64,000 bases of DNA from Nitrospirota bacterium. Lineage in GTDB: Bacteria > Nitrospirota > UBA9217. The notes under the pieces are model-generated. The model saw nothing but the letters and a program-made list of their open reading frames with translations. It searched no databases and was not told the origin of the DNA. The first letter of the stretch is position 1. Every line of letters begins with the position of its first letter. A program made the translations under genes and the position numbers. Positions 4,863 through 44,340 of this stretch are shown piece by piece. Where the stretch lies: positions 22,988-86,987 of the forward strand of contig JAGVOT010000070.1 of NCBI GenBank assembly GCA_020052615.1. Direction: 5' to 3'.

Positions 4863-5159
4863 GTGAGTGACAAAGGTCTAAAAAAAGCGGTGATCATTGG
4901 AGCGGCCATCGGAGCGGTCGTGACGCTCGGCGCTGCGATCTCCATGGATTATGTCCTGTCCAACTCCCTGCAGGGGACCTGGCGGGATGCGGCGGTCAAG
5001 GACGTGACCAAGATATTCGGCCCGGCGTGCGGGCAGAACTGGTATGCCGTCACCCTGGTCCTTGTCTCAGTCATGGCATTTCTCGCCTGTTTTGGCGCCG
5101 TCCTTGGCGCTGTGGCGGGCACCATCATGAACCGGTTCTTCAAGCTCCTGCTGAAGTGA
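4863..5159 (+). CDS. Small membrane protein, two predicted TM helices (full-length copy)
   Basis: GTG start; two hydrophobic helices; bases 4944-5159 are duplicated at 12468-12683. Confidence 0.65.
   Translation: MSDKGLKKAVIIGAAIGAVVTLGAAISMDYVLSNSLQGTWRDAAVKDVTKIFGPACGQNWYAVTLVLVSVMAFLACFGAVLGAVAGTIMNRFFKLLLK
4944..5159 (+). repeat. 216-bp direct repeat, copy 1
   Basis: Aligned by eye to 12468-12683: 12 mismatches, no gaps. Confidence 0.95.
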
Positions 5160-5259
5160 ATAATCCCGGGATTCTCCTACCCGCGTAGTCCCGCATTAGC
5201 CAAAGCATAATCTCAATATTTCGTCTCACAACACTTGATAGTTGTGTTGCTTCTAAACG

Positions 5260-5278
5260 ATACCCCAAAAATACCCCA
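5260..5278. repeat. Short direct repeat ATACCCCA-aaa-ATACCCCA
   Basis: Two ATACCCCA copies next to a small inverted repeat CACAAC-acttgata-GTTGTG (5227-5246). Confidence 0.6.
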
Positions 5279-5603
5279 CAATTATTGTTGACAAAGTGGT
5301 TCAAGTTCCTTAAACTCTCGCTCACCGTTGAAAATGCATTCCAGATTTCAGACGAACAACGCGTGCCTGTTGGAAGATGTCGATGTTGTGTAGAGTGATG
5401 TTGCATTTCCTTAATACCCTTTCTGATCGAAGCTGTTCCCTTCTGCATTACTAAGGCTTGAATAATTTATGCTCGATTGTGCCGCATGGTACGCTGCCGT
5501 TTTACGGATTCAGTAGCGATATGTCCTATCATGCGTCTGTGCGAACTGCAATATACACTGACTCCACTGATCCGGATCTTTGGTCGACGAGGGAAATCTA
5601 TCT

Positions 5604-5984
5604 ATGGTTTGGGCCGCATCAGAACGGGGAAAGGCCCGGGCGCTGTTCTTCTCGCTCACGTATCTCATTCTCCTATGCCCGGATCCCGGGTGGGCGGAAC
5701 CGGGCACAGCGATTGAGCAGCCGGGCAAGAGGAACGAACAAACCGTAGGCAAGTACAAAGAAGGGGAGCTCCTGGTGAAATTCAAAGCAGAAACGCCCAA
5801 AGATGTGGAGTCAGCATTGCATGGCAAACTCGGTTCGGAAGTCATCAAGGAATTTCATACGATCAAGGTCCAGCATGTCAGGCTGAAAAAGAGACTGAGC
5901 GTGGAGGAGGCCGTCCGTCTATATCAGGCGGACCCGAATGTCGAATACGCAGAACCTAATCATATCGTGGAAATACAGGAATGA
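5604..5984 (+). CDS. Stand-alone secreted subtilase-type (fervidolysin-like) prodomain protein, possible protease inhibitor or chaperone
   Basis: Signal peptide then YKEGELLVKFKAETP...LSVEEAVRLYQADPNVEYAEPNHIVEIQE, paralogous to the N-terminal prodomain of the next gene (KKGELIVKFKKEV...MTVEEAIARYMSDTDVEYAEPNYIIYAQD). ORF track starts at 5580. Confidence 0.8.
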   Translation: MVWAASERGKARALFFSLTYLILLCPDPGWAEPGTAIEQPGKRNEQTVGKYKEGELLVKFKAETPKDVESALHGKLGSEVIKEFHTIKVQHVRLKKRLSVEEAVRLYQADPNVEYAEPNHIVEIQE

Positions 5985-6017
5985 TATGTCTACTCAGCTA
6001 AAAAAAGGAGCAAAGAC

Positions 6018-9000
6018 ATGAAAACAGATTTTGTTAGAGCGTGTATATTTCCAGCACTTACGGTCTTCTTTTTTTCAGGAAGTGTTTTCGCAGTAGACGG
6101 ATTGCATGAAAAGCGGCCGGATCAAGGCCCCCTTGCGCAGAAACAGGAGAAAAATTTCAAGAAAGGTGAGCTTATTGTCAAATTCAAAAAGGAAGTAGCA
6201 GACCAGATAAAAAAGGGCAAACACGACAAACATGGCGCGAAGAGGCTCAAACAATTCAAGCATACTGGTGTTGAAATTGTTCAGCTTGCGACCGGGATGA
6301 CTGTTGAGGAGGCGATTGCCCGCTATATGTCGGACACGGACGTTGAGTACGCAGAACCAAACTATATTATTTATGCTCAGGACTTACCGAAAACTTTTCC
6401 TGATGATCCATATCTTAGCAACCAATGGGGCGTATATGGTTCCCTTTGGAGTCCCGGCATTATGGCGCCAGAGGCATGGAGTATAACGACGGGGAACAGT
6501 GATGTAGTCATCGCAGTAATTGACTCTGGAGTGGATTATACGCACGCAGATCTTACAACCAATATATGGGTTAATCCAGGAGAAATCTCCGGGAATGGTA
6601 TTGACGACGACAATAATGGATATATCGATGATATTCATGGCATCAATGCAATTAATGGTACTGGCAACCCCATGGATGACGGCTATCATGGAACCCATGT
6701 AGCAGGAACAATCGGTGCTGTTGGAAACAATGCTGTTGGCATAACAGGGGTAAGTTGGAATACAAAAATTATGGCATGTAAATTCATGTCAGGGAATCCA
6801 GCAAGAGGATCTTTGGCTGATGCCCTGGAATGTCTAGAATATGTCAAGGAGATGAAAAACAGGGGAGTCAATGTTGTTGCTACAAACAACAGCTACGGAG
6901 ACGCAACTATTCTATTTACCTCACTTTTTGATGCTATTAATCAACAGAGAGATATCCTTTTTGTGCAGGCTGCTGGAAACGCGCGCTATGATGTTGATTA
7001 TATCCAAGTTAGAGGTAATACTACCTCCTATTCAAGGTATTATTTGCCAAATTATATTGTAGTGGGAGCAACCACAAAACGCGATGAGCTCTGGTTCGTT
7101 TCTAACTATGGGCGCCATAGCGTTCATGTTGGAGCGCCTGGCGATCAGATTTACAGCACTATTCCCAATAACGGATACCAGATGGATAGTGGAACTTCTA
7201 TGGCAGTACCCCATGTCGCTGGCAACGCAGCGCTTATTGCTTCTCGCTACCCGACAAAATCAGCCGCTCAGATTCGAAACCTCATTTTGAGCGGCGGAGA
7301 TGTCATGGGGGATCTCGTTAGTAAAACACTTACTGGTAGGCGGATCAATGCATATGGATCGCTCACCTGCAGCAATTCACCCGTGTTTTCCATACTGAAG
7401 TATCCCATGGACTATTCAGTTGGAGTGACCCAGCATTTATCAGCTATAAGCATTAACTGTGATGAATCAATCGGTCCTGTCACCGTGACAACACACAGTG
7501 GTGAGATTGTTCAATTGCATGATGACGGAGTGTCCCCTGATCTCGCGGCAGGGGACGGTATATTTATGGGCACGTGGACGCCTTCAGTGCATGGCGATAA
7601 GCTTGTGTATTCATCTCCAATCGGCACGGATGAGGTCGTAACCACGCCGCTGTCAATACTGACAACGAGCGTGAAAAATGCTTTCCGCAATACGCCATAT
7701 AGCTTCTTGTTTAAAGCGTATGGTGGCGTGGCACCCCATGTCTGGAGAATTACTTCAGGGTCACTTCCTTCAGGACTTTCTTTGACTTCGCCAGGAGAGA
7801 TTGTTGGTATCCCTGCGGAAACAGGATCGTTTAGCTTTGGGATAGAGGCGAAGGATTTGTCCGGTCTGGTATCACAGGCGTGGTTAACAATAGCTGTCGA
7901 CGAATTTGACAGCAGTGCTTTTGAATTATGGGGCAAACAATATGATTCGGCTCCGGGTGTACTTGAAGTACATGAAGTTGGTAACAGCATTGCATCCGAT
8001 ACACTGGGCAATGTCTTTGTGGGAGGCGAGATTTCGAGATATGACTCTCAAACGTGGTTGCGGCCTTCGGATGCTTTTCTTGTTAAATACGATCAAGATG
8101 GAAATGTTGTTTGGACGCGGTCTTACGATACCGGTACTTATGATGGGGCTGTTTCGGTAGCTGTCGATAGTGAGAATAATATTTATACGGCTGGCTATGA
8201 GCACAATGGAATCAATCGTGGTTACCTTTTAGTTAAATATGATCAATTGGGCGACAAACTATGGAATACACGATATGAAGTAGACCAGTTGGATAGCGCA
8301 GTAACTGATATGGCAATAGACGCGAGTGACAATATTTATTTAATTGGTACAGCCAGTTCAAACAATATCGCTGTCTTTGATAAAAACGGAATTATGTTGC
8401 GTAGTTTCACTGCGCGTGTTAATTCAGGCATTGCTGTTGACAGCAGCGGTAATATCTATGCAGCTGGTCAAAATCTTTTAATAAAGCACAGCCCCGACGG
8501 CGGCGAAATATGGGCTGCGAATTCATTAGGAACAATAACTGATCTGGCATTAGATGTCAGCGGGAATGTATATATTTCAGGTGCTATTTTATATGGGAGT
8601 AACAAAGATTATTTAATAGAAAAATATTCGACTGGCGGCACACCGTTGTGGTCCAAAAACTATGATGGGACAAGTGATGACAATGCCAACGATATTGCCG
8701 TAGATAAGTTAGGAAATATATATGTGACTGGATACGCCGATTTAAATTTCTTAACGCTAAAATATTCTTTCGATGGAGTTCTCTTATGGAAAAAATTATA
8801 CGATACAGGCAACTCTGATTTTGCGAACGGGATAGCCGTTGATTTGAATGAGAATGTTTATGTGACCGGTAGATCCTACAATGAAAATCCAATTAGCGGC
8901 TCAAATGATGATTGTACAACAGTAAAATATAAAAACAATGACGTCATGATTGCCAATGGTGGGTTGGCGTCGGCGACAATTAATCTTGCCTATAACGCCG

Positions 9001-13934: not shown

Positions 13935-13991
13935 CCGGAGAAGGCGAAGCAGTGCTATTTGACGAACGTGAAAGCGGTCCTGGAGGTGGAT

Positions 13992-16772
13992 ATGAGGTCT
14001 AGAACAATAATTCCCATGATCATAATGATCGCCATGACGGGCTTGCTGGTTGCCGGCGTCGTGCAGGCGGCACCCGTAGGGGTGGCGTCGATCACCGAGA
14101 AGATCGACAACCCCGGGCGTGTCGCAGTTGATGCCCAGGGCAACCTCTATGTGACCGAGGCCGCCAAGAACGTTGTTAAAAAATTCAGCAGCAAGGGCAG
14201 ATACCTAGCCTCCCTGACCGTTCCACGACCGCTTGGCATCGCTGCCGACGCCTCCGGATTCCTCTATATCGGCTCGGAAGGCGAAAAAAGAGTGAACGTC
14301 TATGACACCGCGCTCACCTTTGTTCGCAGCATCGGCACGGACGTCCAGAAGCCGAACTCCGTCGCCGTCGATGCCACCGGGATGGTCTATGTCACCGATA
14401 CCCTGCGCAACATTGTCAAGGTGTATGATCCGGCAGGCAGCAGTGTGAACTTCGTGTGGGGCGCTGCCTTCAGAAAGCCCATGGGTGTTGCGGTGAACGA
14501 CGAGGCTGGTGATATCTACGTTGTCGATGTTCCAAAATTGCCGACTTCCAATGGCGAAACCGATGGGACGCGGATCCTGGTTTTCAACAAGTCAGGCGCT
14601 TTCCAGCGGACCATCGGTCAGTCGGTTGGTCAGCAGGCAAAGTACACCGAGGTCGCCTGCGACAAGGGCGGTACGCTTTATGTTACCGACTCGATAGCGA
14701 ATGTCTTCCTATTCAATTCCGTGACCGGCGCTGCTCAAGGCACCCTGTCCGGTTCTGTAAAAGGCATCTTTAATCCCAAGGGTATCGCGATCAGCGGAAA
14801 CGGCCTCGTCTATGTGGCTTCCTATTCGGGCAAGAGCATCGAGGTCTTCGGCTTGGACGGCTACGCGACCATGGACGTTGGTCCGCTTTCGCTGACCTTT
14901 GTCGGTACGCAGTATGCCGGAAATCCCGACCCGATGACCATTGTGATCGCGAACACTGGAAGCGGCACCCTGAACTGGAGCGCAACGGTGGACCGGGATT
15001 GGATCACCCTCGGCAAGCAGGATCCGGTCGGCCCCATGAGCGCGGGCGGGCTCGCGGTCGGCGTGAATATCTCGGCATTCGTCATCGGGACGCAGAGCGG
15101 CACTATAATGATCGATTCCGGCTTCGGCCAGAAGCAGACGGTCAACGTGACTGCTGTTGTTGGCCCGGCGCCTCTTCTGAGCATCAGCAACGGCTGGCTG
15201 AATTTCAGCGCCAAGAAGGGGACGACCCCGGCAGCACAGGGGATCGCGCTCGGGATCGACAACCTGACCGGCCCCGTGGCCTGGAGCATTGCATCGGATT
15301 CGCCCTCGTGGCTTGCCGTATCCCCGGCATCGGGGACGATCTCCGCCTCGGCCGTGACGGGCGCGGCGACAGTCTCCGTGAACACCGCCGGCCTGAAGAT
15401 AGGTTCCTACTCAGGTATCCTGACCGTATCCGCGCCCGGCGTCATTGGGACCGGCGGCAAGATCACGGTCAACCTCACGGTCACTCCTTCCACCAAGATC
15501 AACGTAAACACGAACCGGCCTGACGCAACCTTCTCGGTAAGCGGCCCGGCCAGCTATAGCGGCAGCGGCGAAGTCTGGAGCATGGAGGATGTGCCTGCAG
15601 GCGACTATACGGTGACCTTTAACACGGTCGCCGGGTACAAGAAGCCCCTGCCCCAGGCCAAGTCCCTTGCTGGAGACGGAGAGGTGACGTTCGGCGGCAC
15701 TTACGCCTCGCTGCAGGAACTCGCAGCGAAGAAGAACATTGTCGTTGCCAAAGGCCCGGGCGCGAGGAATGACGCCCTGGTAAAGGCCTATAAGAACAAC
15801 GGGACGCCGGTCGCGTTCGACCTGGTCGCCCTGAGCACCCGCTTCGGCGCAAACGTCGCTGTAGGTGATATCGACAACGACGGCGAGGCCGAACTCATCG
15901 TCGGGGCTGGTGACGGAACAGCCAATCCCGCGACGGTGCGCGTGTTCAAAGCCGACAAGACGCAGGTCCTCGAGTTCGTGCCTTTCGGTTCTCTGAACGG
16001 CGTCCGCGTGACGGCGGCCGACCTGAATGGCGACGGCATGGCGGAGATCATCGTCTCTCCGGCCGGCGGAGCAGACAACGCGGGCAAGGTAGCGGTCTAC
16101 ACTTACGATGCGGCACAGAAGAAGATGGCTGCCACGGGCATTGAGTTCACTGCGTATACCCATGCCTACGGCGCGAACATCGCGGCTGCAGACATCGACG
16201 GCACCGGGAAGCCGGTGATTGTTACGGCACCCGGCCTTGGCAAGCAGAGCCCGGCCCTGGTCAAGCTCTGGAAGGTGGACACAACGCCTCCTGTCGGCAA
16301 ATGGACTGCCACGCTGCTGAAGGACATCTCGCTGGGCGGCGCATACGGCGCAACGGTCGCTGCCGGTGATGTAGACAGTGACGGCAATGACGAGATCATC
16401 GTAGGAACGAGCGGCGACAATGCGATGGTCACGATCGTGAAGGCCGACGGGTCCCGCTCGGGCTTCAAGGCCTTCGATAAGAATACGGTGAACGTGGCCG
16501 CGGCGGACCTGGACGGCGACGGCATTGCTGAGATTATCGCGGCCCAGGGCCCCAACATCAGCCAGACGGGCACAGCGGACAAGAGCGCAGGTAACGGCAA
16601 GCAGGGGAAGAAGAAGGACGGGAAGGAAAGGGAAGTTGAATACAGCGATGCAGACCAGGAGCGCGGCGTGGTACGGGTGTTCAGCGCCTCAGGCAAACTG
16701 AACTTTGTCATTGCTCCGTTCGAAGGTGCGCAGGACGGAATCAATATTGCAGTCGGTGATCTCGGCATCTAG
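13992..16772 (+). CDS. Secreted NHL propeller + BACON-like Ig + FG-GAP/VCBS repeat protein
   Basis: NHL-type repeats (NPGRVAVDAQGNLYVTEAAKNVVKKF...), BACON-like W(L)AVSPASGTISAS, and Ca-loop repeats GDIDNDGEAELIVG, ADLNGDGMAEIIVS, GDVDSDGNDEIIVG, ADLDGDGIAEIIA. ATG at 13992 has RBS ggaggt. Confidence 0.9.
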   Translation: MRSRTIIPMIIMIAMTGLLVAGVVQAAPVGVASITEKIDNPGRVAVDAQGNLYVTEAAKNVVKKFSSKGRYLASLTVPRPLGIAADASGFLYIGSEGEKRVNVYDTALTFVRSIGTDVQKPNSVAVDATGMVYVTDTLRNIVKVYDPAGSSVNFVWGAAFRKPMGVAVNDEAGDIYVVDVPKLPTSNGETDGTRILVFNKSGAFQRTIGQSVGQQAKYTEVACDKGGTLYVTDSIANVFLFNSVTGAAQGTLSGSVKGIFNPKGIAISGNGLVYVASYSGKSIEVFGLDGYATMDVGPLSLTFVGTQYAGNPDPMTIVIANTGSGTLNWSATVDRDWITLGKQDPVGPMSAGGLAVGVNISAFVIGTQSGTIMIDSGFGQKQTVNVTAVVGPAPLLSISNGWLNFSAKKGTTPAAQGIALGIDNLTGPVAWSIASDSPSWLAVSPASGTISASAVTGAATVSVNTAGLKIGSYSGILTVSAPGVIGTGGKITVNLTVTPSTKINVNTNRPDATFSVSGPASYSGSGEVWSMEDVPAGDYTVTFNTVAGYKKPLPQAKSLAGDGEVTFGGTYASLQELAAKKNIVVAKGPGARNDALVKAYKNNGTPVAFDLVALSTRFGANVAVGDIDNDGEAELIVGAGDGTANPATVRVFKADKTQVLEFVPFGSLNGVRVTAADLNGDGMAEIIVSPAGGADNAGKVAVYTYDAAQKKMAATGIEFTAYTHAYGANIAAADIDGTGKPVIVTAPGLGKQSPALVKLWKVDTTPPVGKWTATLLKDISLGGAYGATVAAGDVDSDGNDEIIVGTSGDNAMVTIVKADGSRSGFKAFDKNTVNVAAADLDGDGIAEIIAAQGPNISQTGTADKSAGNGKQGKKKDGKEREVEYSDADQERGVVRVFSASGKLNFVIAPFEGAQDGINIAVGDLGI

Positions 16773-16822
16773 ACATACTCAATTAACGAAAAAGGCGCGG
16801 CATGCAAGAAGGAGCGTTGAAC

Positions 16823-19800
16823 ATGAAAAGATCAATCATAGGAAGACTCTTGATCCCTGTTGTGCTGGTCGTCCTGTGCCTGAGTGCACAGACGGCGGAT
16901 GCGCTCGATGCGCCTCACAACAATCTGGATAAGAACGAGTTGATAACCTGTTCAAGCTGCCACTATTCCGCCGCCAGCCCGCCGGCATGGGTATCGTCGG
17001 CGACCCCGACCGGCGATACTACCAAGTGGAACCTTCTCTGCTTCCAGTGCCATTCGACCGGGAACCTTCCTCATGGTGCAAAGTACGAGGACGTCCAGAC
17101 CCACTCCAGCGCGGTTATAGAGTCGGCTAAGTACGGCACCTGGAACGTGGAATGCCGTGTTTGCCATTCTGCGCACTATCAGCAGCAGGCGCTCAGCTAC
17201 AGCACTGATGCGGCGAGCTACCTGGCCACCGGGACCGTGGGCGGCTTGGTTACTGCAGCGGCTGCAGTTACTTCGACCATCACTGACACGAGCGCTCCGT
17301 TCGTTGCGGGCGCTTATGAAAATTATCTTCTCATTCCGAACCTGGCCTATCCGACGACGATGTACAGGATCCAAGGGAACACGAACAGCGTGATCACCGT
17401 GTACGGTGCGATCAATCCGTACTATGCCTCGGTCGGCAAGACCTATGCGATCAAGTACGGTAAGATGGTGAACCAAAGCATCGAAACGCCGTCGAGCGGC
17501 ATGCGCCAGGTAAAGTACTATGATGCCACAGGCGTGAACTCCTTCGGCTCCGGCACAACATCGGCGACGACCGCCGTCTGCCAGGTCTGCCATACCAGTA
17601 CCACATCGTTCAATAATAGCGGCGCGCAAGAGGCGGGTCTCCATCCTACCGGTGTTGTTGCCGCTAACCAGCCCTGCACCGACTGTCACAGCCATGCATC
17701 CGGCTTCAAGCCAGGCGGGTGTACCAACTGCCACGGCACCCCGCCGGTCGACAGCGGCACGCTGGTGTTCAAGGATAAAGATGGAACTGATGTTACCTCG
17801 CAGTCACCGGGAGCCGGTGCGCATCTCAAGCATACGACCGACGCGAACCTGTCCTGCAGCAACTGCCATACCGGCGGCATGACTTCCGCGCAGGCCGGCG
17901 ATTTCAGGATCAATCTCGGCCTTCGGCTCGGATCGACCGACCTGGACGGCAACTACGATACCACGAGCAGAATAACGTATACCGTTATCGGCACACCGCC
18001 GACGACGGTGACCTACGGCGGCAGTCTGCAGTGTTCGAACCTTTACTGCCACAGCACGGTGCAGGCGGATGGCGGGGTAGGCGCTCCCACTTACAAGACC
18101 CCGACATGGACAGGCACCGTTGCGTGCGGCGACTGCCATAATGCTGATGGCGTGCCCAACACGATGGATACGGGCGGCCATACGTCCCACCTTGCTTCAA
18201 CGGTCGGCGCGACCTGCGATACCTGCCACAGCGGCAATACCCATGCCAACGGAAATATAGAGGTAACCAACGTTTCTTATACCATGGGCGGGACTCCGAG
18301 CAACGGCTATGGATCGTGCTCGGCAGCGTCCTGCCACATGAGCGCTTATGATGCGGTGATGGTGATGACCCCGACCTGGGGCAATAGTGCCGGTTGCACG
18401 GCCTGCCACACCGTTCCGATCGACGCGACGGGACCGAACACGGGCAGCCATGCCGTGCACAACGTGACGGATTGCTCGCAGTGCCATGCCGGCGCATTGA
18501 ACAGTACAACGACCCCGACCCTGAACCATACCGACGGCAACATCGACGCTACCAACGGCTACCCGGCAACTGTCAAGCACGCGGCAGGGACCTATGCCGG
18601 TACCTGTAATTCAGCATCGTGCCATCAGACGGGCATTTCGACGAACGATTACACGATTACGCCCGTCTGGGGTGATACTACAGCGCCGAATTGCACCGTC
18701 TGCCACGCTGCGGTTCCTGCGACAGGCGCCCATAGCGTCCATGTGACCAGTTCATCGTATGACTGTTCTCAGTGCCATACGGGTGCGATCAAGGATACGA
18801 GTTATGCAAGCGCGCAGCACCGCGACCTGAACATCGACATTTCCGTCGGCGGCTATCCGACGAACAGGCCCATGGGATCTGCCAAACAGTCCTGCTCCGC
18901 GACCCAGTGCCACGGCACTACGTCGCCGGCCTGGGACAACCTTGCCGGCACGACCGGCGATTGTTCACTTTGCCACGGCATGTCGGCAAACCCTGCCGAT
19001 GGACGGGACACGGCCGGCCACACGGCGCCGACGGATTCGCAAGTGGGCGCCCATGTTGCCCATCTGACAGGCACAAGCAACTACAGCTCCGTTGTCGTCT
19101 GCTCGGATTGCCATGCGGTACCTGCCAGCGTTGCGGCGGCCGGCCATATTGACAGTGCGCTGCCCGCAGAAGTCGTATTCAGCGGCCTGTCAGTATCAAA
19201 CAGCGCCGCAGCTAACTATAACACGGGGACCTGTTCGACCGTGTACTGCCACGGCGGCAAGATGATCTATCTGTCAACCAACGGCACGGATACGAGGCCG
19301 GTGTGGAACGCGATCTCCTATCTGAACTCAATACCCTCGAAGACTGGAGACTGCGGCGTATGTCATGGAGCACCGCCGTCAGGGTATGCGCCAAACAGCC
19401 ACAGTGGCTCAGAGACGCTTGCCGAGTGTAGCGGCTGCCACAACCATTTGAGATCAGACGGGACCTTTAGCGCACCGGCACTTCATATAGATGGCACGGT
19501 ACAGGCCAGCGGCTGCACGGGTTGCCACGGCCAGCCGCCTGTTGATGCGGCTACCATGGTGACGAGCCCGCCCGCGGGTGCAGAGACCGGCCGGAAAGTT
19601 GGCTTCGCGTCGTCTAATGGTGGCGCCGGTGCTCACGATTTCCATATGAACAGCCTGAGCTTTGTCAGCTGCAACCGCTGCCACAGCGGCGGCGGCGGCG
19701 GGACCCACCAGACCGCGTTAAAGATCACCTTCGGATTCACCTACGGATTGAACAAAGGTACGTACACTGCACCGGCCCTTTCAAACGGATATACCCTGAC

Positions 19801-21871
19801 CTCGGGCGATCCGGGAACGACGGTTGGGACATCGGCAGCACGGAACTGCACCAACTATTGCCACAGCTCCGGCCAGGCGGCGAACGGACAGGCTGGCGAC
19901 CCGGTCTTCGCTACGCCGGACTGGGATAATATCGCTTCCGGAGACTGCGGAGCCTGCCACGTGGTGGCCGGCATGAACACGGGCAGCCATACGAAGCACA
20001 TAGCGGCAGACAGCAACTGCGGCAACTGCCATACCGATGCCACCCTTTCCTCGTATGCCTCTACAAGCCATGTGAACACGTCGATCGACGTGGCCACAAG
20101 TCTGAGCTACACGGGCAGCGGGCTCGCGGGCAACGGCTACGCAACCTGCCAGGCTGCCAGCTGCCACGATACCGGCCGCAATGTCATCGTCGCGACTCCG
20201 CTGTGGGGCACGACGATCAACGACTGTTCTACCTGCCATGCCAAGCAGCCTGCAACGGGCAGCCATACCAAGCACTTGACCGGCACGGCTTACCACAAGG
20301 CGGTCTGCGGCGATTGCCACGGAACTGCCGTGGAGGGTTCGACCGCGATGGCATCTCACCCGACCGGCTCGGTGGATGTGTATGACGTGGCGGCCGGCGA
20401 CCTTGGATATCCCGCGGTCGCGAAGCATAATAACGATATCTTCCAGAGCTGCACGACGGCATACTGCCACAGCTCCGGCCAGGCGGCTGACGGCGGATCC
20501 ACGCCGGTCTATTCTTCGGTGACCTGGAGCAGCGGTTCGCTGAACTGCGGCTCCTGCCATAAGAACATGGACGGCGATAGCACCGCTCCCGGCAGCCACG
20601 TTGCCCACGCGCAGAGCGCGGCAATTTCGTGCGGAAACTGCCACAATGGCTACACGGAAACGACCGCGAACGTTACGACGCACGTGGATAAGCTGATCTT
20701 CACGAGCTTCACCGGCACTGCAGCAGGGACGACCTACTCGCAGGCAAGCACGTCGGCGGTCGGCAACAACTTCGGCACCTGCTCCGCGAGCTCATGCCAT
20801 GGATCTGCAACCGTGGCGTGGGGCGCGAACACAACCAACAACACCTGCACCAAGTGCCACGGAACGGGCACGGCCGGGACTGTGGACGGGACCAATCGGT
20901 ACGTGGTCGCACCGCCGCAGGATCTTGCGGGCAACAGCGGAACTTATAGCGACCTTGGGCAGGTCAGCAACGACCCCCAGGTCGGCGCCCATCAGACCCA
21001 TCTGCGGGTCTTCAACGGGCTGACCTCGACGACGGGCCAGTTCACGCTGGACAACCGGTGCGAATTCTGTCACGGTACGCTCCCGACATCGGGTATGCAT
21101 GCCAACGGCAGTGCGGTGCCGGTGTTCTCGGGCCTTTCAACGTCGGGCGGGAAGGTTTCCGCAGCTTATAGCAATGGAGCATGCAGCAATACCTATTGCC
21201 ATAATCCGGCCGGGGCGACCGGAGGCCTTGCAGCCGGGAATGCCGGTCTGGCAACGGCACCGACCTGGACGCAGGCCAGCTACGTCAGTGGAAACACGAA
21301 GACCCAGACCAACTGCAACAGGTGCCATCTGGTGCCTGACGATGGGGCATTTACGTCGTCTACCAATCACACCGGCTATACTGTTTCCGTCACCGACTGC
21401 TCCGGTTGCCATGGCCATAACGGTGACAACCAAGGCTCATTAGGCCAGCGTCATATGGACGGTATAAAGTACGGCGGCGGCAGCTGCGACTCCTGCCACG
21501 GCTATCAGACAACCTCCTGGGCGTCGGCGACCCAGCGCGCCATCGAGGGCAAGGGAGCTCATGCGAAACATGTTGCGTATCTCGCAACGCTCGGTACCGT
21601 GACGTCGAATCCGGCGACCGATCAGTTCGGCAACGGCGTGTTCTGGGATGCCGTCTGCGGCAAGTGCCACGGCGGCGCCACGCATACGACGAGCGAACCG
21701 ATTGGCGGAACCGGCCGGCAGATAACGGTCGCTTCCGAGTATGTGTTCAGCACGGGGACGACGACATATAATGCATGGAATTCGATCAACCAGTCATCGT
21801 CGGTAAACCCGAAGACCTGCTCGAACATCAGTTGTCATTACCAGACTACGCCGGTTTGGTCAGCCTATTAG
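16823..21871 (+). CDS. Giant multiheme c-type cytochrome (CxxCH / CxxxxCH repeat family)
   Basis: Signal peptide; 31 CXXCH, 10 CX4CH (e.g. CSNLYCH, CSAASCH, CSTVYCH), 1 CX3CH (CTNYCH), counted by hand in the supplied translation. ORF track starts at 16802. Confidence 0.95.
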   Translation: MKRSIIGRLLIPVVLVVLCLSAQTADALDAPHNNLDKNELITCSSCHYSAASPPAWVSSATPTGDTTKWNLLCFQCHSTGNLPHGAKYEDVQTHSSAVIESAKYGTWNVECRVCHSAHYQQQALSYSTDAASYLATGTVGGLVTAAAAVTSTITDTSAPFVAGAYENYLLIPNLAYPTTMYRIQGNTNSVITVYGAINPYYASVGKTYAIKYGKMVNQSIETPSSGMRQVKYYDATGVNSFGSGTTSATTAVCQVCHTSTTSFNNSGAQEAGLHPTGVVAANQPCTDCHSHASGFKPGGCTNCHGTPPVDSGTLVFKDKDGTDVTSQSPGAGAHLKHTTDANLSCSNCHTGGMTSAQAGDFRINLGLRLGSTDLDGNYDTTSRITYTVIGTPPTTVTYGGSLQCSNLYCHSTVQADGGVGAPTYKTPTWTGTVACGDCHNADGVPNTMDTGGHTSHLASTVGATCDTCHSGNTHANGNIEVTNVSYTMGGTPSNGYGSCSAASCHMSAYDAVMVMTPTWGNSAGCTACHTVPIDATGPNTGSHAVHNVTDCSQCHAGALNSTTTPTLNHTDGNIDATNGYPATVKHAAGTYAGTCNSASCHQTGISTNDYTITPVWGDTTAPNCTVCHAAVPATGAHSVHVTSSSYDCSQCHTGAIKDTSYASAQHRDLNIDISVGGYPTNRPMGSAKQSCSATQCHGTTSPAWDNLAGTTGDCSLCHGMSANPADGRDTAGHTAPTDSQVGAHVAHLTGTSNYSSVVVCSDCHAVPASVAAAGHIDSALPAEVVFSGLSVSNSAAANYNTGTCSTVYCHGGKMIYLSTNGTDTRPVWNAISYLNSIPSKTGDCGVCHGAPPSGYAPNSHSGSETLAECSGCHNHLRSDGTFSAPALHIDGTVQASGCTGCHGQPPVDAATMVTSPPAGAETGRKVGFASSNGGAGAHDFHMNSLSFVSCNRCHSGGGGGTHQTALKITFGFTYGLNKGTYTAPALSNGYTLTSGDPGTTVGTSAARNCTNYCHSSGQAANGQAGDPVFATPDWDNIASGDCGACHVVAGMNTGSHTKHIAADSNCGNCHTDATLSSYASTSHVNTSIDVATSLSYTGSGLAGNGYATCQAASCHDTGRNVIVATPLWGTTINDCSTCHAKQPATGSHTKHLTGTAYHKAVCGDCHGTAVEGSTAMASHPTGSVDVYDVAAGDLGYPAVAKHNNDIFQSCTTAYCHSSGQAADGGSTPVYSSVTWSSGSLNCGSCHKNMDGDSTAPGSHVAHAQSAAISCGNCHNGYTETTANVTTHVDKLIFTSFTGTAAGTTYSQASTSAVGNNFGTCSASSCHGSATVAWGANTTNNTCTKCHGTGTAGTVDGTNRYVVAPPQDLAGNSGTYSDLGQVSNDPQVGAHQTHLRVFNGLTSTTGQFTLDNRCEFCHGTLPTSGMHANGSAVPVFSGLSTSGGKVSAAYSNGACSNTYCHNPAGATGGLAAGNAGLATAPTWTQASYVSGNTKTQTNCNRCHLVPDDGAFTSSTNHTGYTVSVTDCSGCHGHNGDNQGSLGQRHMDGIKYGGGSCDSCHGYQTTSWASATQRAIEGKGAHAKHVAYLATLGTVTSNPATDQFGNGVFWDAVCGKCHGGATHTTSEPIGGTGRQITVASEYVFSTGTTTYNAWNSINQSSSVNPKTCSNISCHYQTTPVWSAY

Positions 21872-21881
21872 GAGGATGACA

Positions 21882-24602
21882 ATGACCAAACAGGGTGATA
21901 TAATGGCCAAGATAAAAACTTCGAATGGTGAGGTCTGTATGAGAACGAAAATGACAAAGACTCTTGAATCTTCAGGTTGGCTGGCATGGGTCAGTCGAGT
22001 ACTGATCTTCACCATGATGTTCGGTCTTGCCATGCTTCCGGGCTGGAATGCGACGATGACCGCGCAGGCGGCAACGCTGCCTTCCACCATTACCTCCTGC
22101 GGCGACTGTCACGGCAATCCGCCGGTGGACAGCGGGACCCGGGACGCGAGCGTAGGGCGGTTCCCCGGATCCCATAATAAGCATTCGAACACGACGACAG
22201 GATACGCCTATGCCTGTTCGGTCTGCCATGTCGAGCCGGCAACGTATAATCATCGGAACGGCAACATTCAGATGGCGAACCCCATTAACGGAGACGCCGG
22301 TGCGGCATACGGCAAGGGGACGAGCTGGGCGCAGACCAATACGCCGTCGGCATTCGAAGACTGCACCAGCACCTATTGCCACAGCCAGGGCGTGAGCCAG
22401 ACCGGCCAGCCGGGCGATACGAGGACTATTTCGGCGCCGGTCACGACGCTCGGATGGAGCAGCACCGGCGCCTGCGGGTCCTGTCACGGTGCTCCTCCGG
22501 CATATGCGAACGGAACCGCACTTTGGGGAGCAGCCAAGGCGAACAGCCATGGTCCTCACAGCAGTTATAACTGCAGCTTATGCCACTACGGCACCACGAC
22601 AGATGGTGCGACAATTACGGATAAGACAAAGCATATCAACCGAACGTACGATATTTTAGACAATGGGGTCGAGAGCATCGCCTCCTATTCCTATACTGCA
22701 ACCGGCGGGACATGCAATACCGTATCCTGCCATGCAAATACCGGCGGCATCTGGGGCGACCCGAACAGTGTGAGCTGCCTGACCTGCCACAATGCGGCAG
22801 TGGGCAGCAGGGCGGCAGTGATCCCGGCGTTCAATGCCCAGTCGCACCATATACAGAAGGTCGGTGGCCCTCTCACCACGGACTGCGCCGCCTGCCACTG
22901 GGAAGCTCAAGTTGGCGGTAAAGCCGACGCTGCATACCACAAGAATGGAGTTGTCGATCTCGTTACAAACTATACGACAACACGGCCGGCCACTCCCGCG
23001 GGCAATATTGTATCCTATTACACGGCGAGTGCGACCCGGACCGAATACGCGAAGCTGAACACCCATTGTCTTGGCTGCCACGATGCGAACTCTGCGACGG
23101 CCCAGCCTTTCGGCGACGGAAAAACGCCGCAGCAGTACGCCTGGGACTCGTTGAGCATTGATTCGCGATACTCCCAGGCCGGGACAACGGCGTGGGGCAA
23201 ATACAGCGGTCTCAACACGACGCCAAAGAATACCCAGAGAAAGGCCCTCTCGGCGCACGGGAACGCGGCAGCGAATCAGCGTGGCTGGAATACGACGGAA
23301 ACCTGGCCGAATACAAGCGGAACCGCGCAGATCCTATGCTTCGACTGCCATAATTCCCATGGTTCGAGCGTGGCAGGGGCGACGGTAAGCTACGCTACCG
23401 GTACGGGCGGCATTTTGAAGGATGTTCTCACCGGCGTGGGCGGATACACGGTCACCTACAAGCCGACAACCGGAGGGAATGCCTTAGCGCATAACGTATA
23501 CAATCCGGGCGCAGGCATCTGCTTTGACTGCCACGAAAATGCCAACATGAACGCTGCGGTCAGCGGCGGTAATACGCCTTGGGGCTATACCGGCACATTT
23601 GGAGCGTCGCAGCCCATCAGAGGGTATTTCGACAAGGCCTATTGGAATGGCCTGGATGTAGCCCAGAACGGCGCCCAGCAAAGGTTCCCGAACACGAAGG
23701 GAACGAGGACGGTCGCTGGAGGACATTTCGGCGCATCATCAACACCAGGCAAGACGGTGAGCGGTACGATCGGCGGTCTCTGTACGCCGTGCCATGACCC
23801 GCACGGCGTCAGCACAAGCCTGGGAGCGGATAACATCTACGCCGTGCCGCTCTTGAAGGGCACCTGGATGACCTCGCCCTACAAAGAAGATGCAGGAATA
23901 GTCGGTGCTTTTGGCAGAAGAGGCGGTCGTTCAAGTTCTACCTCCGGGGCATGGACTACTGGAGCGAACAACCCTGGCATGGGCCAGAACGGGTATCATA
24001 TTGACCAGAACACGTTCCAGTCTACAAATGGTACTCTTTATACGCGCACAAAGCCGGCGACGATCACCCAGACCGCAGCCCAGTTCGGCGGCTTGTGTCT
24101 GAACTGCCATACGGCTATGCAGCCCCCGCAAGGGGCGGCGCAACCTGCCTGGTCGAGCGTCGACAGGATCCACAATAGCGTCAAAGGCTGGGCGAGCACG
24201 GCAACGACCGCCAAGAACGTGAATAACGACGTACATGCCTATGTCTGCTCAAAGTGCCACACGTCGCATAATACCTGTCTGCCTCGTCTAGCGATCACCA
24301 ACTGCCTGGATTTCAAGCACCGGCAGCAGCGCGTTTCCGGCGGCACGGCAGGCCAGCATCTGGGCAGCAGCAGCCGGGGTTCGGGAAGGGGCAGGTTCCC
24401 CGGCGGCGGCGGCGGCGCTTCCTCTAGCGGTACGAGCAGCGCGTACATGAACGGCAGATGGTACTTTGGCACGGCTGGTACAAACAGCTCGAGCGCTACA
24501 AACTGGAGCAGTGCGCGCGCGACGAATTGCCATACCACGAAGACTGCGAACGGTACGGCAGCATGGCCTAACAACACGTGGAATAGTATTACACAGTGGT
24601 AA
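21882..24602 (+). CDS. Multiheme c-type cytochrome with Cys/Gly-rich non-heme tail
   Basis: 12 CXXCH and 2 CX4CH (CTSTYCH, CNTVSCH); RBS ggagg 6 nt before ATG 21882; tail HNTCLPRLAITNCLDF...GRGRFPGGGGGASSS...ATNCHTT. Confidence 0.93.
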   Translation: MTKQGDIMAKIKTSNGEVCMRTKMTKTLESSGWLAWVSRVLIFTMMFGLAMLPGWNATMTAQAATLPSTITSCGDCHGNPPVDSGTRDASVGRFPGSHNKHSNTTTGYAYACSVCHVEPATYNHRNGNIQMANPINGDAGAAYGKGTSWAQTNTPSAFEDCTSTYCHSQGVSQTGQPGDTRTISAPVTTLGWSSTGACGSCHGAPPAYANGTALWGAAKANSHGPHSSYNCSLCHYGTTTDGATITDKTKHINRTYDILDNGVESIASYSYTATGGTCNTVSCHANTGGIWGDPNSVSCLTCHNAAVGSRAAVIPAFNAQSHHIQKVGGPLTTDCAACHWEAQVGGKADAAYHKNGVVDLVTNYTTTRPATPAGNIVSYYTASATRTEYAKLNTHCLGCHDANSATAQPFGDGKTPQQYAWDSLSIDSRYSQAGTTAWGKYSGLNTTPKNTQRKALSAHGNAAANQRGWNTTETWPNTSGTAQILCFDCHNSHGSSVAGATVSYATGTGGILKDVLTGVGGYTVTYKPTTGGNALAHNVYNPGAGICFDCHENANMNAAVSGGNTPWGYTGTFGASQPIRGYFDKAYWNGLDVAQNGAQQRFPNTKGTRTVAGGHFGASSTPGKTVSGTIGGLCTPCHDPHGVSTSLGADNIYAVPLLKGTWMTSPYKEDAGIVGAFGRRGGRSSSTSGAWTTGANNPGMGQNGYHIDQNTFQSTNGTLYTRTKPATITQTAAQFGGLCLNCHTAMQPPQGAAQPAWSSVDRIHNSVKGWASTATTAKNVNNDVHAYVCSKCHTSHNTCLPRLAITNCLDFKHRQQRVSGGTAGQHLGSSSRGSGRGRFPGGGGGASSSGTSSAYMNGRWYFGTAGTNSSSATNWSSARATNCHTTKTANGTAAWPNNTWNSITQW

Positions 24603-24663
24603 TGGAAAGCATGAATTATCAGGAGAATCGATACCAGCAGAAGACCAGGAAAGGAGGTGCAAG

Positions 24664-24726
24664 ATGAAGAAACTGACCTATGTGAAGCCGAGAGTGGTTG
24701 GCACTGCCAATGTGCATCCCTGCTAA
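24664..24726 (+). CDS. 20-codon micro-ORF, MKKLTYVKPRVVGTANVHPC; candidate RiPP-like precursor or cytochrome-associated peptide
   Basis: GGAGGTG at 24653-24659, 4-5 nt before ATG; TAA stop; lies 61 nt after the cytochrome stop and immediately upstream of a strong terminator. Visible only as the C-terminus of the 86-aa ORF 24466..24726 in the track. Confidence 0.65.
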   Translation: MKKLTYVKPRVVGTANVHPC

Positions 24727-24748: not shown

Positions 24749-24790
24749 GAGAGGTGAAGCGCGGTATGGCTTCACCTCTCTCTTTTTTTT
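24749..24790 (+). terminator. Rho-independent terminator ending the cytochrome operon
   Basis: gagaggtgaagc-gcggtatg-gcttcacctctc followed by tctttttttt. Confidence 0.95.
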
Positions 24791-24922: not shown

Positions 24923-25759
24923 ATGTCCTTTGCGTTGTCTCGTTTCGTGCTTTCGCTATTCGTTATGTGCAGTGCATTCTCCTCCGGGGCTGCAGCTGCC
25001 GCTGCCGAGACACGGCAGGAGCCAGTACAAGTCCTGAAATCCGGTACGATAACAGGCCGGGTTCTGGCCAAGGGAGGGGTGCCCCTTTCCTGGGGAGAGG
25101 TGATGTTCTATGATGTTTCCGCCGGACCGCCTCCCCGTCCTGACCTGTATGAGAGGACGCCTGACATATCGAAAAGCCTCGATGCCGACGGGCGGTTCAA
25201 GGTAACAGTTCCGCCGGGGAAATATTACCTGGGGGCAGTTAAACGGATGTCGGGTGAGCGCTTTGGCCCCCCCCGGGAAGGGGATTATGTTCTGAAAGCT
25301 GTGGATGATAAAGGCAAACCGCTGCTTTTCGACGTGAAGGCAGGAGCTGAACTCAATGTGGGAAAACTTCCTGAGGCCGTGCCCGTTGACGCGAAGGACC
25401 TTGCAAAGCGGGCAATGACCACCGGGATTCAGGGAGTGGTTGTCGATGTCGATGGGAATCCAATAAGCGACGCTGTTGTCCTTGCCTTTGTAACTCCGTC
25501 CCTGAAGGGCCGGCCGATCTTCATTTCAGACACGTCAGGCATCGACGGCATCTATCACCTGAGGCTGACAGAAGGCACGTACTATCTGAGAGTGAGAAAC
25601 AGTTCTGCGAGCGGGCCTCCGGAACCGGGCCAGATCGTCGGTCATTACGGTGATGGCTCACCGGAAGCGGTCACGGTCAAAACCGGCGAGATCAAGAGCG
25701 GCATCGATTTTCGGGTCGTTCTGTTCGGCGGCCGCGGGCCCAGGTCGGGAGAGCAATGA
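24923..25759 (+). CDS. Secreted protein with carboxypeptidase-regulatory-like / prealbumin-like folds
   Basis: Signal peptide; GTITGRVLAKGGVPLSWGEVMFYD...GRFKVTVPPGKYYLGAV and GIQGVVVDVDGNPISDAVVLAF...YHLRLTEGTYYLRV. Confidence 0.75.
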   Translation: MSFALSRFVLSLFVMCSAFSSGAAAAAAETRQEPVQVLKSGTITGRVLAKGGVPLSWGEVMFYDVSAGPPPRPDLYERTPDISKSLDADGRFKVTVPPGKYYLGAVKRMSGERFGPPREGDYVLKAVDDKGKPLLFDVKAGAELNVGKLPEAVPVDAKDLAKRAMTTGIQGVVVDVDGNPISDAVVLAFVTPSLKGRPIFISDTSGIDGIYHLRLTEGTYYLRVRNSSASGPPEPGQIVGHYGDGSPEAVTVKTGEIKSGIDFRVVLFGGRGPRSGEQ

Positions 25760-43224: not shown

Positions 43225-44340
43225 ATGATCCGGAAGGTCTATCTCGACTTCATACGGGACAAACTGGCCGGCCGCGAGCTGCGCTGGCTCCTGTCGCGTG
43301 CCGTCCAGTACGGCCTCCTCCACGCTTCCTACCTGTTCAAAAAGCCCTTCTGCGGCCCTGTCCTGGGGACCCTGGTCACGAACTACTCCTGCAATTACCG
43401 GTGCGTCATGTGCGACCTGCGTTTGCGCGACCAGGAGCTGCGTGGCCGGGGGCTCCGCGAACTGGACACCGCGGGAATGAAAAAAGTGCTGAGCTCCTTT
43501 GCGGCCCTGGGCACGTCGGGCATCGGGTTCACCGGCGGCGAACCCCTCCTCCGGAAGGACATCTTCGAACTGCTGGCTTACACAAAAGCCTCAGGTATGA
43601 TCTCCCACCTGAACACGAACGGATCGCTGCTGGACGAGGAGAACGTCAGGAGGATCCTGGCGGCAAAAGTGGATTCCCTCAACATCTCCCTGGACGGGGC
43701 CCGCGCTGCCACCCACGACTCCCTGCGCGGAATCCCGGGCGCCTTTGCCAGGGCAGTAGAGGGCGTGGAAAGGGTCAACACGCTCCGGAAGAGGGAAGGT
43801 GCCCGGCTTCGCATCAAGACCGTTGCCGTGCTGCAGGAGGGCAATGTCGACGAGGTTCCTGACCTGGTGCGTCTGGCTGAAGACCTGGGCGTGGACTGCA
43901 TCGAATTCATACCGCGGCAGCAGTTCCTGTCACGACCTGACCGGTCTCCCGCGCCGGCCCCGGCGTTCCTGAAAAAGATCGAGCAGGTTTCACAGTACCT
44001 TCTGGGGCAGGAGCACGGGAAGGTCAGGATAGAGAACTCGCGGACCCATCTCCGGCTGTTTCCCGCTTCCTTCCGGAACGAACCGTCTCCGCTCAAATGC
44101 TATGCAGGCTACAATTCCCTTGCCGTCGACTGCTATGGGGAGGTCTATCCTTGCGTTCCCTGGTACAATTGGCGCCGGTCCGCCGGGAACGTCCGGGACA
44201 AGGGGCTGGCAGATCTCTGGTATTCGAAGGGATACGACGAGGTCCGCCGGGAGGTCCGGAGCTGCCGGAGCTGTTATCTCAACTGCCAGGCGGAATTGAA
44301 CATCCTCTTCGACCTGGGCGCATCAGGGAGGATCAGATAG
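43225..44340 (+). CDS. Radical SAM/SPASM-domain protein
   Basis: VTNYSCNYRCVMCDLR (CX3CX2C); FTGGEPLLRKDIFELL; C-terminal KCYAGYNSLAVDCYGEVYPCVPWYN...SCRSCYLNCQAE. ORF track starts at 43126. Confidence 0.92.
   Translation: MIRKVYLDFIRDKLAGRELRWLLSRAVQYGLLHASYLFKKPFCGPVLGTLVTNYSCNYRCVMCDLRLRDQELRGRGLRELDTAGMKKVLSSFAALGTSGIGFTGGEPLLRKDIFELLAYTKASGMISHLNTNGSLLDEENVRRILAAKVDSLNISLDGARAATHDSLRGIPGAFARAVEGVERVNTLRKREGARLRIKTVAVLQEGNVDEVPDLVRLAEDLGVDCIEFIPRQQFLSRPDRSPAPAPAFLKKIEQVSQYLLGQEHGKVRIENSRTHLRLFPASFRNEPSPLKCYAGYNSLAVDCYGEVYPCVPWYNWRRSAGNVRDKGLADLWYSKGYDEVRREVRSCRSCYLNCQAELNILFDLGASGRIR

Follow-up and report, generated by a model that had tools for sequence, protein, structure and literature searches.

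The closest described systems to the locus reported here are GeoRSP, mycofactocin (MftA/MftB/MftC) and PQQ (PqqA/PqqD/PqqE). Three NCBIfam families make up GeoRSP: TIGR04302, a PqqD-like chaperone; TIGR04303, a radical SAM/SPASM protein (GeoRSP_rSAM); and TIGR04304, a SPASM-only partner (GeoRSP_SPASM). No mention of GeoRSP in this sense, or of the peptide, was found in the literature searched; the NCBIfam description texts were not covered, so an informal mention of the peptide is not excluded. The leader motif bound by lasso-type PqqD-like RRE domains is [Y/W]xxPx[L/V/I/F/A] (PMC13381572). Here, we report that a 20-codon micro-ORF in the window (the whole 64,000-nucleotide stretch of DNA that was analysed) is a genuine gene of a widespread, conserved micropeptide family, and that its product is very likely a GeoRSP precursor.

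The features of the locus were read from the window and are collected in Table 1. The first-pass annotation, made from sequence alone, had described a 20-codon ORF with GGAGGTG ahead of it and a terminator 22 nt after its stop, at the end of a cytochrome operon; all of this held when the sequence was re-read, with the terminator stem beginning 22 nt past the stop and no gene lying between. The window cytochrome matched the TIGR01904 domain (CxxCH/CxxxxCH multiheme cytochrome) at 41.6 bits (cut-off, 27). Of 126 loci, 47 had a member of the CarboxypepD_reg-like family near the peptide gene. Elsewhere in the window, a 405-residue open frame scored weakly as radical SAM (TIGR04303, 77 bits; match at 43378-43908).

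Table 1. Features of the micropeptide locus (positions within the window).
Feature	Position	Strand	Details
NHL/BACON/FG-GAP secreted protein	13959..16772	+	First gene of the run
Second multiheme cytochrome	16802..21871	+	Same run; 31 CxxCH, 10 CxxxxCH; client tail absent
Multiheme c-type cytochrome	21876..24602	+	Directly upstream of micro-ORF; 12 CxxCH, 2 CxxxxCH
C-terminal "client" domain	24072..24599	+	176 residues; conserved in an alignment with 19 further cytochromes linked to the peptide
TNCLD motif, first lone Cys	24297..24311	+	C78 of domain, C810 of ORF
Orphan Cys-His	24528..24533	+	C153-H154 of domain, C885 of ORF; CH without a CxxCH partner Cys
C-terminal tail	24579..24599	+	WNSITQW (family WNxKTPW)
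Shine-Dalgarno GGAGGTG of micro-ORF	24653..24659	+	Inside AAAGGAGGTG; read from sequence
Micropeptide gene (very likely of GeoRSP precursor type)	24664..24726	+	ATG 24664, 20 codons, TAA ending 24726; MKKLTYVKPRVVGTANVHPC
Parts of MKKLTYVKPRVVGTANVHPC			Leader motif Y6xxP9xV11; core V17H18P19C20; then stop
Intrinsic terminator	24749..24790	+	Closes the transcript; 12-bp stem 24749-24780, then eight T
CarboxypepD_reg-like protein	24923..25759	+	Exported; downstream of micro-ORF

Homologues of the 20-mer with a VHPC-stop end were identified by tblastn in 11 of 61 Nitrospirota genomes, several of which carried more than one copy (four in G006). The family (17 to 21 aa) follows the consensus M-K(x)-Y-x-x-P-[KR]-[VI]-V-G-[ST]-[AS]-x-V-H-P-C-stop. 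A degenerate DNA pattern made from it (40 bits; chance expectation, 6e-6 per 4-Mb genome and 0.4 in the 264-Gb collection) matched at least 118 contig stretches of that collection, and the 80 listed titles were almost all Desulfuromonadia/Geobacterales, unspecified Deltaproteobacteria or Nitrospirota. One to five copies per genome were present in the 16 genomes checked, and a reversed control pattern gave zero matches in the genomes checked. Nearly all homologues were preceded by a strong Shine-Dalgarno sequence. Plasmids yielded no peptide match by DNA or by tblastn in the collection searched, and no Pfam or NCBIfam model, those of the mycofactocin and PQQ precursors included, matched the peptide at E values up to 10, so that this test was not met.

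Conservation extended to positions that the pattern left wholly free, with K before the Pro in 94 of 130 copies and R/K after it in 113 of 130. Pairwise difference was 0.60 at third codon positions versus 0.24 at first and 0.21 at second positions, a contrast partly imposed by the search pattern itself, which fixes many first and second positions. When 141 Geobacterales genomes were searched with a pattern-free profile, the C-terminal variants IHPC, LHPC, VYPC and VQPC were recovered, and the Pro and the terminal Cys-stop were kept in every one. A "single C-terminal Cys" had been remarked upon in the first-pass annotation, which was correct and understated, the whole VHPC end being nearly invariant; its stated refutation, the lack of a conserved homologue behind related cytochromes, was not met, many homologues lying directly behind cytochromes. 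One natural VYPC variant (L220; G061:C1:147927-147986) adjoins a tail cytochrome about 10 kb from a GeoRSP rSAM gene.

Linkage of the family to GeoRSP was shown by gene content and gene order. The genome from which the window derives encodes all three GeoRSP proteins above cut-off (PqqD, 164 bits against 100; rSAM, 599 against 400; SPASM, 339 against 300) next to a cupin protein on contig G000:C110, a different contig from that of the window's peptide copy; its PqqD-like RRE protein also matched PF05402 (66 bits, beside 164 bits to TIGR04302). The CxxxCxxC motif is present in the GeoRSP rSAM and absent from the SPASM partner. After GeoRSP itself, the next-best matches of the rSAM were, among others, NirJ2, AhbD and NirJ, then MftC slightly lower, enzymes that act on heme or on a C-terminal peptide. 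Peptide and TIGR04303 enzyme (counted only when over the TIGR04303 cut-off) occurred together in 33 of 141 Geobacterales genomes, with 3 having the peptide only, 2 the enzyme only and 103 neither (Fisher P, 2e-26); the corresponding counts for 296 Nitrospirota genomes were 14, 3, 2 and 277 (Fisher P, 2e-19). These P values overstate independence, the genomes being related. Several of the six peptide-only genomes (three in each group) are evidently small or incomplete; G033, however, reaches 93% completeness. That genome carries two peptides and no over-cut-off rSAM; a PqqD-like fragment was seen there beside a divergent radical SAM gene (scoring 93 bits against TIGR04303; G033:C4, L229, about 4976-6039), which could be a substitute maturase.

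The order GeoRSP_rSAM-peptide-GeoRSP_SPASM was found in 11 loci, and the peptide gene stood directly behind GeoRSP_rSAM in 17. Where coordinates were compared, at least 12 of the 33 Geobacterales genomes proved to have a copy no more than about 12 kb from the rSAM gene; many other copies lie far from GeoRSP genes. The leader of the window peptide (YVKPRV) matches the RRE motif, which is kept in the pattern-free variants except L226. In a related genome (G010), the GeoRSP neighbourhood includes a YedE-type selenium/sulfur transporter, PhnD-like and OpuAC-like binding proteins, a ResB-like protein and a permease. In some Desulfuromonadales loci, the GeoRSP genes have a cysteine desulfurase-family protein (TIGR01977) and a YedE transporter on their flanks (L155:346-1530 and L116:3531-4601); these neighbours suggest a supply of sulfur or selenium, and its addition in GeoRSP chemistry is conceivable. 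Separately, a BchE-like B12-binding radical SAM protein was observed near the peptide in nine loci (L117:1723-3237 and eight more); its score of 401 bits falls short of the BchE cut-off of 481.

A second linkage, shown as co-occurrence and adjacency in the two groups searched and newly seen here, ties GeoRSP and the peptide to the C-terminal client domain of multiheme cytochromes. In the alignment of the window domain with the 19 others, TNC, CH and W-N...W were invariant. Among 124 proteins examined directly upstream of peptide copies, 39 had at least four CxxCH and 29 ended in the tail WNx[KVI][ST]xW. The last Cys-His before the tail lacked a partner Cys in all 29, in which 402 of the 419 other CH pairs formed complete CxxCH/CxxxxCH. 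Both lone Cys (the orphan CH and T-N-C-L-D or a close variant) were found in 51 of 51 distinct tail cytochromes. Multiheme tail proteins were present in 7 of 11 Nitrospirota genomes with the peptide and in none of 50 others (61 searched), and the tail in 24 of the 38 Geobacterales genomes that have GeoRSP, the peptide or both, and in none of 103 others (141 searched); the remaining pattern matches were a few short frames without heme motifs and were not counted as multiheme tail proteins. Some tail cytochromes lie nowhere near a peptide gene (for example, two in G034 and five in G095), and a product of the system would therefore act in trans. No solved structure was found for the window cytochrome, and AlphaFold gave no usable model of its client domain (mean pLDDT, 44; pTM, 0.19). 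The idea that the orphan Cys is a free thiol awaiting the Cys of the peptide was weakened, as the second lone Cys (TNCLD) in 51 of 51 tails is a potential partner.

Two other kinds of protein were observed around the peptide genes. Immediately ahead of the peptide gene, nine loci (L090, L203, L058, L126, L071, L169, L209, L204 and L211) encode secreted FN3-type proteins that reach 2300 aa and carry a Cys among their five C-terminal residues (..G[DA][GN]TC(x)); these may form a second client class. NosD-like right-handed beta-helix proteins were seen near the peptide in L102 (5348-7999) and about 30 loci. NosD-type proteins assist copper-sulfur centre assembly.

In outline, the micro-ORF product is very likely a GeoRSP precursor peptide, recognised by PqqD through YxxPx[VI] and altered by radical chemistry in its VHPC core. 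We make this assignment because of the rSAM-SPASM gene sandwiching, the genome co-occurrence and the RRE leader motif; the binding and the modification are themselves inferred. The same evidence supports the earlier proposal, in the first-pass annotation, of a cytochrome-tied modified peptide serving as a PqqD-radical SAM substrate as in Geobacter-like genomes, while its alternatives of a thiol/heme-handling peptide or an assembly cofactor are still possible and unsupported by direct evidence. In the proposed pathway, the 20-mer would be translated along with its cytochrome, and the PqqD-type RRE (TIGR04302) would bind the YxxPx[VI] leader, as inferred from motif and neighbours. GeoRSP_rSAM and the SPASM-only partner would then modify the C-terminal VHPC core, most plausibly Cys20, also by inference. 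A thioether or crosslink, or a C-terminal decarboxylation as performed by MftC in mycofactocin, is plausible and unproven; for chemistry of the decarboxylating or crosslinking kind at that Cys, the plausibility comes from the scores of the rSAM against heme-modifying NirJ2/AhbD/NirJ and against MftC.

In the last step, the product (a modified peptide or small cofactor) would exit the cytoplasm and serve secreted clients in trans, chiefly multiheme cytochromes whose C-terminal domain has TNCLD, the orphan CH and WNxKTPW. Export is inferred, and the peptide has no signal sequence, although this step would put the peptide or its product at the cell surface. Adjacency and exclusive co-occurrence are the grounds for inferring that the client domain is where the product acts, and we regard this as falling a little short of an even chance; the linkage may instead reflect a common cytochrome family and lifestyle. 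A bolder reading, in which a VHPC-derived cofactor or crosslinker would be installed at the two lone Cys or orphan Cys-His of the client domain, is unlikely. Within that reading, completion of a heme c site in trans would be one option; another would be a new redox/metal centre at the outer end of electron-conducting proteins.

The rival that survives best opposes only the client step and leaves the precursor assignment untouched. It reads the client tail as a covalent heme site of an unusual kind (TNC ... CH) with its own lyase, or as a plain disulfide, and the peptide as a separate matter of shared habitat. Such a site remains possible: both lone Cys are present in every distinct tail cytochrome, dedicated lyases are known for long CXnCH heme sites (for example, the CX15CH of sulfite reductase; PMC6976685), and ResB-like genes occur in GeoRSP neighbourhoods. 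Against it stand the finding of the tail, within the two groups searched, solely where GeoRSP or the peptide is present and the 29 of 124 upstream proteins that carry the tail directly before the peptide. A second rival, which makes the peptide an unmodified thiol/His micro-subunit or chaperone binding heme or the lone Cys of the cytochrome, with GeoRSP a mere neighbour, draws on the single C-terminal Cys beside a His and on the many copies directly behind cytochromes. It is very unlikely given the rSAM-peptide-SPASM order, the near one-to-one co-occurrence with GeoRSP, the RRE-type leader and the presence of some peptide genes behind non-heme genes. Somewhat less probable still is a secreted RiPP with antimicrobial activity, or a signalling peptide: the RiPP-like logic is there (PqqD-type RRE, radical SAM/SPASM enzyme and YxxP leader), but no obvious protease/ABC exporter pair was found in the GeoRSP neighbourhoods scanned, the core is near invariant, and the one to five copies per genome sit beside structural surface proteins. 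A translated leader/attenuator or spurious 3' UTR ORF, to which the shortness of the frame and the terminator behind it might point, was rejected and is all but excluded by cross-phylum amino-acid conservation, the invariant C-terminus and the absence of any gene before the terminator directly behind the ORF.

With the GeoRSP precursor assignment as the preferred reading, an orphan radical SAM/SPASM system gains a concrete substrate candidate in metal-reducing and related bacteria and is tied to one specific domain of extracellular multiheme cytochromes. GeoRSP chemistry, and a possible unseen peptide-derived modification on extracellular electron-transfer cytochromes, become testable. A family of genes for 17 to 21 aa, in one to five copies per genome, is also added outside the Pfam and NCBIfam models.

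Among known systems, the CXnCH sites of the MccA/SirA sulfite reductase are like the client tail in being heme sites unlike CxxCH with dedicated maturation (PMC6976685); the tail differs in that a variable stretch of tens of residues separates its lone Cys from the CH, and covalent heme there is unproven. Lasso-peptide and LPP leaders share the YxxPx[VI] RRE-binding motif (PMC13381572), whereas the core of the VHPC peptide is only four residues and no leader peptidase or cyclase was found in the scanned neighbourhoods. The GeoRSP system itself is the nearest match, with its three proteins in the genome of the window and, elsewhere, the peptide gene between or near GeoRSP genes and co-occurring with them; it has been catalogued through proteins alone, the peptide having no Pfam or NCBIfam model. 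Mycofactocin and PQQ resemble it in their short ribosomal precursor, PqqD-like RRE, radical SAM/SPASM enzyme and conserved C-terminus, and in a product likely for the producer's own use rather than an antibiotic. Unlike MftA or PqqA, the GeoRSP peptide ends in VHPC, its copies are dispersed beside secreted cytochromes, and its system has an extra SPASM-only partner.
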